Below, piece after piece: positions 23,926 through 42,653 of a DNA stretch of 64,000 bases (positions are counted from its first letter, which is position 1; each line of letters starts with the position of its first letter). The DNA is from Belliella buryatensis. Its GTDB lineage: Bacteria; Bacteroidota; Bacteroidia; Cytophagales; Cyclobacteriaceae. The translations under genes were made by a program, and so were the position numbers. The stretch is taken from NCBI RefSeq assembly GCF_900188245.1, contig NZ_FZOK01000009.1, forward strand, positions 1-64,000, given 5' to 3'. The notes under the pieces were generated by a model, which saw nothing but the letters and a program-made list of their open reading frames with translations, ran no database searches and was not told where the DNA came from.

Positions 23926-25716
23926 ATGTGCGGCATATCCCTTCTGATTGACAACAGCCCAAAGGCGGAACAAAAAATCCGTCGTATGATGTCGGCCAAC
24001 CTTCATCGGGGTCCAGATCATTCTGAATACAATCGAGTAAGTGATAAAGTATGGGTGGCAGGGAACCGACTGAAAATTTTGGACCTGAGCGACGCCTCCA
24101 ATCAGCCCATTTGGGATGAAAAAAGACGGTGTGTGCTAGTCTGGAATGGAGCCCTTTACAATTACCAAGATTTAAGAAACCAACTTTTGGATCTGGGCTT
24201 TACTTTTAAGACAAGCTCAGACTCTGAGGTTTTTCTTAATTGGCTCAAGGCACATGGAAAAACGGGCATTCAATCGCTCAAAGGAATGTATTCTTTTGTT
24301 TTTGTGAATCTAGACTTGGAGGAAATTATCATAGCAAGAGATCCATCTGGAGAGAAGCCACTTTTTTACTATCAAAAAGATAGTCTATGGGTTTTTTCAT
24401 CGGAAGCTAGAGGCGTAAAAGCCGGTTTGGATATAGGACCAAATGTGGATGGAAATCAGTTTCTGCCTTACTTTTACTCAAGGCATAGTTTTCCAGATCA
24501 AAGTTTTTATAAAGACATTCGGCAGTTCCTTCCTGGAGAGGGGTTAAAGTTGGATTTAAAAGGAAACTACAAAGAGAAGTTTTCATGGAAACATGAAGCT
24601 ATAAATAAGGAATCTTTTTCCCAGCAACTTTTCGAATCTAAACTCAAGGATGCCGTCCTAAAAAACTTTCATACCGAGCGCAATGTGGGCGTGATTTTGA
24701 GTGGTGGAGCAGACAGCAGCCTTTTGTATCAGTTGTGGCTAGAAGAAACTGGACAGCCTATGCCAACCTTTACAGCTACTTTTGAAAAGACATTTCAAAA
24801 AAAATATCAAGATCCCATTTATGCCAGAAAGTTGACCAGTCAGCATGAAGGTTTTCATCATGAAGTTCATATCAATCTGGAAAAGGTTAAAGCAAACTGG
24901 CAGGAATACATCGAGTCTTTGGACCAACCCGTGGGAGATAGTGCAAGTTTACTGACTTGGATGATTGGTAAAGAAGCGAAGTCTGATGTGCAAGTATTGA
25001 TCTCAGGAGCAGGTGCTGACGAGCTTTTGGGAGGCTATCAGCGACATAGCGCTTATAAATTCTATTTGCGCAACAAAGACCAGCTGCTGAAGCTCAAATC
25101 TTATATCCTATGGCTACCACTACCTAGAAGAGTCCGTAAATTTTTGGCTAGTATCAAAGAAGATCCCAAACATACATTTTTGAATTTTGCTTCCTTGAGC
25201 CCAATTCCAGAAGATATTGTAAAGCAATTCTTGAGTTGGTACCCTGATGGGTCAAATACTTATAGTGCAGCACTTAATTTTGATAGGAATTATTATTTGA
25301 TCAATGATATCCTCAAAGTTCATGACAATGCCTGCATGGCTCATGGCATAGAAGGTAGAGCTCCCTATTTGGACTTTGACTTGATCGCTTGGATTACGAG
25401 TTTTTCGGATTCAGAACACTTAAACATCTGCGGAAAGCTACCTATCAAATCAGCACTTACATCTAGGGGAATGCAAATGATCGCCAAGCGCAAGAAACTT
25501 GGGTTTGGGCTTCCTTTGGAAGAATGGATTGCTAAGGATAAAACTTTTCAAAACTGGATATACCCCGAAATCAAAGCCATGTACGATAAATGGGGGCAAT
25601 ATTTTCCCTTAGAAATGCAATCGCTTTGTAAGAGTCCAGAAAAAGCCTCAAAAGATCAATTTCTATTGATCTGGAATATGTTTATCTTGGCGTCTTGGCT
25701 CAGAGTACATGCTTGA
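23926..25716 (+). CDS. asnB: Asparagine synthase, glutamine-hydrolysing
   Basis: A 596-residue class II amidotransferase. Cys2 of MCGISLLID is the glutaminase nucleophile. The synthetase domain carries the PPi loop ILSGGADSSLL (about residue 262) and SGAGADELLGGYQRH. AsnB paralogues of this type are frequent beside glycosyltransferases in surface polysaccharide loci, and a GT4 follows directly here. Its acceptor may therefore be a sugar acid or a peptide instead of free aspartate. Confidence 0.88.
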   Translation: MCGISLLIDNSPKAEQKIRRMMSANLHRGPDHSEYNRVSDKVWVAGNRLKILDLSDASNQPIWDEKRRCVLVWNGALYNYQDLRNQLLDLGFTFKTSSDSEVFLNWLKAHGKTGIQSLKGMYSFVFVNLDLEEIIIARDPSGEKPLFYYQKDSLWVFSSEARGVKAGLDIGPNVDGNQFLPYFYSRHSFPDQSFYKDIRQFLPGEGLKLDLKGNYKEKFSWKHEAINKESFSQQLFESKLKDAVLKNFHTERNVGVILSGGADSSLLYQLWLEETGQPMPTFTATFEKTFQKKYQDPIYARKLTSQHEGFHHEVHINLEKVKANWQEYIESLDQPVGDSASLLTWMIGKEAKSDVQVLISGAGADELLGGYQRHSAYKFYLRNKDQLLKLKSYILWLPLPRRVRKFLASIKEDPKHTFLNFASLSPIPEDIVKQFLSWYPDGSNTYSAALNFDRNYYLINDILKVHDNACMAHGIEGRAPYLDFDLIAWITSFSDSEHLNICGKLPIKSALTSRGMQMIAKRKKLGFGLPLEEWIAKDKTFQNWIYPEIKAMYDKWGQYFPLEMQSLCKSPEKASKDQFLLIWNMFILASWLRVHA

Positions 25717-41359: not shown

Positions 41360-42055
41360 ATGAAAATCTTCAAATGGCTTCTTAGACTAATCGCCAAAAT
41401 AATCCTTTGGTTTTTTGTAATCACAATCGGCCTGACAGTTGTATATAAGTTTGTCCCTGTACCCGTCACGCCATTGATGCTAATCCGCGTTTGGGAGCAA
41501 ACATTTGATGACAAAAAAGAAGTTAGGCTGTACAAGGACTGGGTCCCTATGACCAAAATTTCCAGACATCTTTCTCAAGCAGTCTATGCTGCAGAAGATC
41601 AAAAATTTATGGACCATAATGGCTTTGATAGAGAGGCTATGAAAAAAGCATGGGAAAACAATCAAAAAGGACAACGAGTAAAAGGAGCTAGTACCATTTC
41701 TCAACAAACCTCCAAGAATGTTTTCTTGTGGCCAGCAAGAACTTTGGTAAGGAAAGGCTTTGAGGCTTACTTTACTGTTTTGATAGAATTTATCTGGGGC
41801 AAGGAACGTATCATGGAAGTCTACCTCAATGTGATCGAAATGGGAGAGGGAATCTATGGTGCAGAAGCAGCCGCTCAATATTATTTCAAAAAATCAGCGG
41901 CACAACTCACGCGACAAGAGGCGGCCTTGATTGCAGCGACCTTGCCAAATCCAAGACGATGGTCCCCGGCTAGACCTACACCTTATATATATGGTAGGCA
42001 AGCTTGGATCTTGAGACAGATGAATAACCTGAACCCATTAGGCTTTGGATCATAA
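41360..42055 (+). CDS. mtgA: Monofunctional peptidoglycan glycosyltransferase
   Basis: A 231-residue GT51 enzyme that polymerises glycan strands from lipid II in the inner membrane. It has one N-terminal membrane helix (LIAKIILWFFVITIGLTVVY). The catalytic Glu motif is AAEDQKFMDHNGFD and later motifs are KGASTISQQTSKNVFLW, KERIMEVYLNVIEMGEGIYGAEAAAQ and QEAALIAATLPNPRRWSP. The probable promoter region is occupied by the IS-like repeat just upstream. Confidence 0.93.
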   Translation: MKIFKWLLRLIAKIILWFFVITIGLTVVYKFVPVPVTPLMLIRVWEQTFDDKKEVRLYKDWVPMTKISRHLSQAVYAAEDQKFMDHNGFDREAMKKAWENNQKGQRVKGASTISQQTSKNVFLWPARTLVRKGFEAYFTVLIEFIWGKERIMEVYLNVIEMGEGIYGAEAAAQYYFKKSAAQLTRQEAALIAATLPNPRRWSPARPTPYIYGRQAWILRQMNNLNPLGFGS

Positions 42056-42070
42056 AGAGTATAAAATAAA

Positions 42071-42099
42071 AAAGCCGCGAAACAAAGTTTCACAGCTTT
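42071..42099 (-). terminator. Terminator of the tRNA-like unit
   Basis: On the minus strand AAAGCTGTGAAAC, loop TTT, GTTTCGCGGCTTT, followed by TTTTATTTTAT. The stem has interior mismatches but a good T-run only on the minus strand, 32 bases past the end of the second tRNA-like copy. It may also slow transcription from mtgA. Confidence 0.65.
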
Positions 42100-42130
42100 A
42101 GTCAATTAACAATAAACCCAAAATAACCAG

Positions 42131-42255
42131 CTGTAGGAGAAGGATTCGAACCTCCACGGGGCAGTTGGGCAAAAACACGAGCTCGATATTTGCTTTATCC
42201 TGTGATCCCCACCCCCGAGACAGGAGGGCTTGTCTGCCAGTTTCAACATCCTACA
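42131..42255 (-). tRNA. tRNA-like RNA with hyper-extended variable arm, copy 1
   Basis: Read from 42255 to 42131: acceptor TGTAGGA with TCCTACA, then U8 and G9. The D arm TTG-AAACTGGCAGA-CAA is like tRNA-Leu. The anticodon stem CCCTC/GGGGG holds loop CTGTCTC (anticodon GUC at 42221-42219, Asp in the code). The T arm is GGAGG-TTCGAAT-CCTTC, then G as discriminator, with no encoded CCA. Between anticodon and T arms are about 55 bases forming GGGG/CCCC, CAG/CTG and a distal GC-AAATA/TGTTT-GC stem capped by the palindrome CGAGCTCG. U follows the anticodon where a purine is normal. A role in translation is uncertain. Confidence 0.7.
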
Positions 42256-42303
42256 GTATCATATCATCAAATTTGTAACTCTGATCTTCTATCAGAATAA
42301 TGG

Positions 42304-42427
42304 CTGTAGGAGAAGGATTCGAACCTCCACGAAGCAGTTAGGCGAAACACGAGCTCGATGTTTGCTTTATGCTGTGATCTTCACCCCCGAGACAGGAGGG
42401 CTTGTCTGCCAGTTTCAACATCCTACA
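42304..42427 (-). tRNA. tRNA-like RNA with hyper-extended variable arm, copy 2
   Basis: This copy is upstream in transcription. It is identical to copy 1 in the acceptor, D, anticodon and T arms. The extra arm differs at its base, GAAG/CTTC instead of GGGG/CCCC, and further out has AAACA/TGTTT instead of AAATA/TGTTT. These are compensatory or wobble-consistent changes. The CGAGCTCG cap is kept. The discriminator is again G and CCA is not encoded. The pair is 48 bases apart. Confidence 0.7.
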
Positions 42428-42477
42428 ATTTGTCTTTATTTCAAACTCCTTTGACCTTTTGTCTTTGTTTGATATTT

Positions 42478-42485
42478 CAAAGGTA
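42478..42485 (-). promoter_or_regulatory. -7 element TACCTTTG upstream of the tRNA-like pair
   Basis: An exact TAnnTTTG match on the minus strand about 51 bases before the mature 5' end of copy 2, leaving a short 5' leader. No TTG sits at the standard distance upstream, so the -33 element is weak or absent. Confidence 0.45.
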
Positions 42486-42653
42486 ATAAAACAATCCTTT
42501 TGTTAAAATTTTTGTAACAAATAAGCTTAATTTTTACATTTTATTTATTAAAAAGCTATTTTGTTTACCATATCATCAATTCAGTAGTTAATTTTAATGT
42601 TCGAATTAGAAATTTGAAAATTAGAAGGTGCCTAAAAATCTATTGTGAGTTAA

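Follow-up and report, generated by a model that had tools for sequence, protein, structure and literature searches.

The window, that is, the whole 64,000-nt stretch of DNA that was analysed, carries two tandem copies, A and B, of a tRNA-like RNA on its minus strand. The initial annotation had described tandem complete cloverleaves at 42131-42427, and we found both copies there, with all of the following parts: a 7-bp acceptor stem, TG at positions 8-9, a 3-bp D stem with the Leu-type loop AAACTGGCAGA, an anticodon stem CCCTC/GGGGG with the loop CTGTCTC, an extra region (55-56 nt) and a T arm. The features are as follows.

42478-42485, minus strand: TACCTTTG, resembling the -7 element of Bacteroidetes promoters and lying 50 nt ahead of copy A
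42427-42304, minus strand: tRNA-like RNA copy A, 124 nt (5' end 42427, G73 at 42304), 142.1 bits to covariance model R1, which was built with copy A
42421-42427, minus strand: copy A, 5' strand of the acceptor stem, UGUAGGA, which pairs with 42311-42305
42402-42418, minus strand: copy A, D arm, made of UUG, the Leu-like loop AAACUGGCAGA and CAA
42384-42400, minus strand: copy A, anticodon arm with loop CUGUCUC, the GUC anticodon at 42393-42391, U37 and C38
42329-42383, minus strand: copy A, extra (variable) region, 55 nt
42312-42328, minus strand: copy A, T arm with loop UUCGAAU
42303-42301, minus strand: CCA encoded after G73 of copy A
42256-42303, minus strand: spacer between copies A and B, 48 nt, its first three bases being the encoded CCA of copy A
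42255-42131, minus strand: tRNA-like RNA copy B, 125 nt (5' end 42255, G73 at 42131), 142.7 bits to R1, which was built with copy B
42219-42221, minus strand: copy B, anticodon GUC

CCA is not encoded in copy B. Both copies keep U33, and both have U37. A TTG element 17-23 nt from TACCTTTG was looked for before copy A and none was found. The single-sequence folding energies of the two copies were unremarkable (z of -0.41 and -0.29), so that the structural support given below is comparative; when six copies were folded singly by MFE, the full cloverleaf was not recovered.

The initial annotation knew of no standard tRNA of such a build, and had proposed an Infernal scan of 42131-42427 against Rfam and a covariance-model search of Bacteroidota genomes. 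ARAGORN found no tRNA in the window. None of the 4227 families of Rfam 15 matched the window at its gathering score, the proposed interval included, and a permissive scan of 42050-42500 gave five matches that were all below gathering score (best E 0.36). The Rfam tRNA model (RF00005) matched 39 ordinary tRNAs in the window's genome, including two tRNA-Asp(GUC), and copies A and B were not among them. A literature search of CC-licensed PMC articles found no such RNA in print.

A DNA similarity search of 59 genomes, the window's own among them, detected the RNA in 44, often in tandem. Two covariance models were built, R1 from 30 copies and R2 from 142 matches, and the Bacteroidota search placed the family in several families of one class; R1 also matched one family outside it (f66, three genomes). 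Of 198 genomes sampled evenly from the class, 35 carried the RNA (R1, E 1e-14). A pattern scan, which is biased to GUCUC, found holders in Algoriphagus, Cyclobacterium and Portibacter among the matches listed, and R2 confirmed holders in Dyadobacter, Emticicia, Flammeovirga, Fulvivirga, Marivirga and a Chitinophaga MAG. The pattern-scan loci were excluded from all identity counts, and those among the matches listed did enter both the neighbour survey (145 loci) and the flank counts (200 copies) described below. The identity counts refer to 118 distinct copies found through similarity to a window copy or through models grown from it, and very unlike copies are therefore missing from the 118.

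Two to four copies were present at 35 of 92 loci, some of which overlap. Arrays of three to five copies were seen at L144 (a Marinoscillum contig, also L170), L192 and L210 (Marinoscillum, Marivirga, Flammeovirga), and the Flammeovirga array holds five copies in equal 197-nt steps. We also considered a mobile element and rejected it, there being no match in 72,556 plasmid records or 50,697 phage records.

In the alignment of the 118 copies, which was fitted to the covariance model, 95.3% of cells held standard pairs and 24 of 32 pairs changed on both sides. The covariation score was 0.388, against 0.172 for shuffles, which ignore relatedness, and at most 0.110 for slid controls. A 30-copy MAFFT alignment agreed with it (96.7% paired, 12 pairs, covariation 0.308 against 0.153 for shuffles that likewise ignore relatedness). 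Because of the matches in 44 of the 59 genomes and the covariation above both controls, the window copies are not a chance occurrence. Acceptor pairs 4-7 covary across the family, and pairs 1-3 (U1-A72, G2-C71, U3-A70) are invariant in 117 sequences. The extra arm consists of a 4-bp base, a short bulge that in some copies becomes a hairpin (judged by eye), a 3-bp helix (85.9% paired), an AUAAA/CUAAC internal loop and an outer stem; the internal loop is conserved and the outer stem changes freely. The V stem is 98.9% paired, with two-sided changes in three of its four pairs. The paired changes that the initial annotation had pointed out between the window copies (GGGG/CCCC against GAAG/CTTC) continue throughout the family as GAGG/CCTC, GGAG/CTCC and others, and its claim that the extra arm is held by paired change was borne out by covariation above the controls in both the 30 and the 118 copies. 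Its suggestion that the self-complementary cap CGAGCTCG dimerises is unsupported, because the cap is not conserved: it occurs only in near relatives and is replaced elsewhere.

One natural variant is armless: the copy of genome G048 (L270:1501-1576) has a variable loop of about 7 nt and the anticodon loop CUAUCUC, in a genome with AsnA, and retains acceptor pairs 1-3, the Leu-type D loop, the anticodon-loop bases UCUC, G73 and C74. Three further structural candidates were rejected. An eighth acceptor pair would require base -1 to pair with G73, and that base (C, U or A) does so in only 163 of 200 copies (pattern-scan copies among the matches listed included). Pairing of AGACA in the D arm with UGUCU in the anticodon loop is contradicted by frequent change of AGACA to AGCCA with the loop unchanged. 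C74 is encoded in 199 of the 200 copies, counted in the same way, and it is encoded as well in all 39 ordinary tRNAs of the window's genome, so it is no special signal; among those 39, the full CCA is encoded in tRNA-Asn only.

Anticodon loops read CUGUCUC or some variant of that sequence; CGGUCUC (16), CAGUCUC (6) and CCGUCUC (3) are among those of the 118 copies. The determinants of AspRS are kept almost without exception: G34 in 114 of 118 copies, U35, C36 and C38 each in 118 of 118, and G73 and G2-C71 each in 117 of 117. The full set is present in 113 of 118, one of the five misses being a copy cut at its 3' end. G1-C72, which aids 3'-end positioning in E. coli AspRS, is absent, and U1-A72 stands in its place in 117 of 117 copies. 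Among the ordinary tRNAs of the window's genome, only the two known substrates of GatCAB, tRNA-Asn and tRNA-Gln, have U1. According to PMC9976931, aspartate identity comprises G73, G34, U35, C36 and C38 together with G1-C72 and G2-C71, and U1-A72 confers amidation of Asp-tRNAAsn, which G1-C72 and U20a prevent; recognition of U1-A72 by bacterial GatCAB is likewise described in PMC4206432. Both antideterminants, G1-C72 and U20a, are absent from the RNA, position 20a being read as A after G18 G19 C20 in our own numbering.

The features needed for decoding show the opposite trend. At position 37 the 118 copies have U (109) or C (9) and never a purine, against a purine in 39 of 39 ordinary tRNAs of the window's genome, and U33 is kept in 89 of 118 copies against 39 of 39. 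The body is nearest to tRNA-Leu(GAG) among those 39 tRNAs, and the discriminator is G73 in 117 of 117 copies, not the A73 of tRNA-Leu. G34 is lost in four of the 118 copies (G222, G012, G375, G055) and also in the other two g42 genomes, G442 and G048, six genomes in all; presence of AsnA was rejected as the reason, since AsnA occurs in two of the six exceptions (G222, G048) and in 10 of the 68 others. These patterns show that, as far as identity can be read from sequence, the family keeps the AspRS and GatCAB identity sets while decoding features are lost. The initial annotation had allowed for a non-translational role, which now appears probable; it had missed the AspRS set, U1-A72 and the links to GatB and AsnC.

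Because the invariant U1-A72 is the GatCAB pair, we predicted that the RNA would co-occur with GatCAB, for which GatB was the sole marker used. GatB was found in 151 of the 198 genomes of the class sample. With the prediction set beforehand, all 35 RNA-positive genomes of the sample had GatB, and none of the 47 GatB-negative genomes, which were searched with R1 only and with Infernal's stricter filters, had the RNA (Fisher 4e-5, the tree being ignored). In the phylum sample, f23 had both RNA and GatB in 11 genomes and neither in two, and f22 had both in seven and neither in three, G414 being counted by its absence from the GatB-positive list. The presence of the RNA follows clades. GatB without the RNA was common: 116 of the 151 GatB-positive genomes of the class sample lacked it (R1, E 1e-14), one of them, G048, holding the armless copy, and the same was seen in two f25 genomes and in G099. 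When 40 of the 116 were searched again with R2, the matches were 73-92 nt long and tRNA-sized except for the armless copy; matches of about 60 bits or less and of tRNA length were discarded as ordinary tRNA-Leu, by length and score.

A panel of 45 genomes was then picked by RNA and GatB status: 20 RNA-positive genomes (two from outside the class), 15 with GatB and without the RNA (out of the 116), and 10 without GatB (of which three came solely from the phylum sample). AsnRS was present in all 45. GlnRS was present in 10 of 10 GatB-negative genomes, in one of the 15 with GatB and without the RNA, and in nine of the 20 RNA-positive ones. GatB without the RNA in the panel is thus explained by missing GlnRS, as GatCAB is then needed for Gln-tRNA. 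The nine RNA-positive genomes have both AsnRS and GlnRS, so that GatCAB is dispensable for translation there; the other 11, including the window's own, lack GlnRS, and therefore need GatCAB anyway.

The one panel genome that had GatB and GlnRS and lacked the RNA, G460, encodes a GatB-AspRS fusion with the His of tRNA(Asp/Asn)-type enzymes, and this fusion is another route. At its locus (L300:4407-9124, G460:C19) gatA precedes the frame for a GatB-AspRS fusion of 1106 aa, whose anticodon-binding domain carries RDHG, a motif shared with the solved tRNA(Asp/Asn) ligases 4wj3 and 4rmf; the arrangement looks like a built-in asparagine transamidosome. The genome also encodes AsnRS, GlnRS and a separate AspRS. 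A search beside the fusion for a related RNA, with filters off, gave a best match of 9.6 bits. In five other f84 genomes, GatB matches lie in open frames of 1109-1121 aa. His at the RDHG column, which we take to mark non-discriminating AspRS, was found in none of 12 AspRS from RNA-positive genomes, which have L, K or F instead; of eight AspRS from RNA-negative genomes, most have L, K or F and one has M. Weak GatB_N matches in G501, G559, G585, G570 and G596 lie in open frames of 649-682 aa (142-151 bits in four, G501 by E-value), and are perhaps GatE-like or another GatB relative.

We also looked for other sources of asparagine. AsnA was present in 12 of 91 RNA-positive genomes, four of them of the window's genus, and in two of the 25 RNA-negative panel genomes, and so is no rarer with the RNA than without it. 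AsnB-like proteins of 592-690 aa exceeded the cut-off in 19 of the 20 RNA-positive panel genomes, and their frequency suggests that asparagine may have another source; in G450 neither AsnA nor AsnB exceeded the cut-off. The window itself encodes an AsnB-like protein at 23929-25506 on the plus strand (an open frame of 597 aa that scores 303 bits with TIGR01536). AsnB was rejected as a marker because TIGR01536 was swamped by such long AsnB-like proteins. A shorter AsnB form with a split match (549-578 aa) occurred in five of 25 RNA-negative and none of 20 RNA-positive panel genomes.

In E. coli, AsnC activates asnA, the gene opposite its own. An AsnC-like gene lies divergent from the RNA, 122-214 nt away, in 26 of 38 loci across many families. 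The 38 are those of 40 loci with covariance-model coordinates, several coming from one genome; L129 and L134, which both hold the RNA, were left out, and distances are approximate because a gene start was taken as the first start codon of the frame. AsnC was the best model for all six proteins scanned (one, and five of ten extracted): they scored 156-177 bits with it, each short of the curated cut-off of 227, while Lrp gave 43-58 and no other model exceeded 88. For the one protein tried, the top-ranking solved relative was E. coli AsnC, 2cg4. No AsnC-like gene was found beside the RNA in the window, in four f26 genomes or in G025, and none near asnA at 10 loci. Across the 145 loci of the neighbour survey (pattern-scan loci among the matches listed included), with names given mostly by eye, AsnC-like genes were the commonest neighbours (70), followed by Suf proteins (34) and then others. 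In 15 of 26 intergenic regions a promoter motif of the Bacteroidetes type, TTG-N17-23-TAnnTTTG, points toward the RNA, against a mean of 0.6 and a maximum of 4 in shuffles. In many lineages the RNA gene occupies the place that asnA has in E. coli, opposite AsnC.

Taken together, the observed structure, distribution and linkage lead us to favour, with slightly better than an even chance of being right, the reading that this RNA serves solely as an acceptor on which asparagine is made by the tRNA-dependent route, taken out of translation and controlled by AsnC. From the conserved identity elements and the gene co-occurrence we infer charging and amidation; the supply of free asparagine would be the purpose. 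A discriminating AspRS would load aspartate, reading G34-U35-C36, C38, G73 and G2-C71, and GatCAB, given U1-A72 and the absence of G1-C72 and U20a, would convert the Asp-RNA to Asn-RNA. Pyrimidine 37 and the non-kept U33 would hold the RNA off the ribosome, an exclusion that would be needed because asparagine would otherwise be inserted at Asp codons. Asparagine might then be freed by hydrolysis or, less likely, be passed to another acceptor, and the divergently linked AsnC-like regulator may tune expression of the RNA to the asparagine supply. Whether the RNA is a tRNA class that stands wholly outside translation as the carrier on which free asparagine is made seems to us evenly balanced. Such a class would join a body of Leu type to the identity set of AspRS, the pair for GatCAB and a decoding-disabled loop.

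The same identity and GatB evidence would serve an RNA that is charged and amidated and whose aminoacyl group, Asn or Asp, is moved to a lipid, peptide or cell-wall precursor, in the manner of the staphylococcal tRNA-Gly, and the multi-copy tandem genes (two to four copies at 35 of 92 loci) would suit such a bulk carrier. No transferase was recognised among the recurrent neighbours, named mostly by eye, the commonest of which is AsnC-like, and we regard this as unlikely. Less probable again is a regulatory RNA in which binding by AspRS (and GatCAB) senses the Asp/Asn supply and the charging state controls AsnC or other genes, with no metabolic intermediate. The divergent AsnC-like gene at 26 of 38 loci and the large, fast-changing extra arm would fit it; yet beyond the tRNA-like loops the AUAAA/CUAAC internal loop is the only strongly conserved unpaired stretch, and strict acceptor pairs 1-3 and G73 better suit the substrate of enzymes. 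The clade-wise presence of the RNA, and a Fisher test that ignores the tree, leave room for a tRNA-derived RNA of other function, such as a protein decoy or nuclease bait, whose links to GatB and AsnC reflect shared ancestry. Against this, RNA and GatB come and go together within f22 and f23, and the co-occurrence with GatB was predicted and then found, which makes this improbable.

We consider it more improbable still that the RNA is a serine or leucine acceptor, charged by SerRS (long arm, G73) or by LeuRS (Leu-like body), with an anticodon loop kept for another reason. Its class II shape, a body nearest to tRNA-Leu(GAG) and a G73 as in tRNA-Ser speak for this. Serine identity is independent of the anticodon, however, which would leave U35, C36 and C38 at 118 of 118 unexplained; leucine identity is also independent of the anticodon, and G73 counts among the listed antideterminants against LeuRS. 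Neither assignment accounts for U1-A72 or for GatB. Least credible to us is a role in translation, whether as an Asp isoacceptor or as a tRNA for programmed missense or frameshifting: the cloverleaf is complete and its anticodon is GUC, but all 118 copies have pyrimidine 37, 29 of them have lost U33, the loops include CGGUCUC, CAGUCUC and CCGUCUC, and two ordinary tRNA-Asp genes are present.

We rate the RNA class as new, and the enzymes and chemistry proposed for it as already known. If the reading as an acceptor for asparagine synthesis is true, the RNA would be a dedicated cofactor for making an amino acid, apart from decoding, in living bacteria, and a present-day counterpart to ideas of amino acids made on RNA. 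It would also explain why GatCAB is retained in some Bacteroidota with both AsnRS and GlnRS, would offer a non-decoding tRNA chassis of natural origin that has the identity for AspRS and GatCAB, and would put a name to a gene family that ARAGORN and Rfam currently miss.

Comparison with known systems showed that the RNA is neither an ordinary tRNA-Asp, nor a tRNA-Leu, nor a tRNA-Sec or allo-tRNA, nor a member of any Rfam family. It shares with bacterial tRNA-Asp G34, U35, C36, C38, G73 and G2-C71, and its loop CUGUCUC resembles the CUGUCAC of tRNA-Asp in the same genome; it differs in U1-A72 in place of G1-C72, in pyrimidine 37, in its Leu-type D loop and large extra arm, and in being missed by ARAGORN and the Rfam tRNA model. 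Bacterial tRNA-Leu(GAG) has the nearest body, with a 3-bp D stem, an 11-nt D loop and class II shape, whereas the RNA has G73 rather than A73, an Asp anticodon loop, U1-A72 and a complex extra arm with an internal loop. In tRNA-Sec and allo-tRNA the acceptor stem is elongated to 8 bp or more; that of the RNA has 7 bp. The staphylococcal tRNA-Gly is a non-translational tRNA for cell-wall synthesis, and the RNA would resemble it as a tRNA-shaped molecule out of decoding that serves another pathway, although the amino acid, the pathway and the partner enzymes differ and the RNA would itself be the site of amino-acid making. PMC7609411 describes allo-tRNA and selC*-tRNA, whose tRNA-like genes are likewise unusual and whose variable arm is also long, with longer acceptor and anticodon stems, unlike the 7-bp acceptor, 5-bp T and 5-bp anticodon stems of the RNA. 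Judged by its sequence features, the RNA probably works like the tRNA-Asn of the transamidation pathway: with the tRNA-Asn of that indirect route (AspRS/GatCAB, transamidosome) it shares U1-A72, G73 and an expected charging with Asp followed by amidation, and it departs from it in carrying GUC for a discriminating AspRS instead of GUU for a non-discriminating one, in its class II shape and in its lost decoding features.
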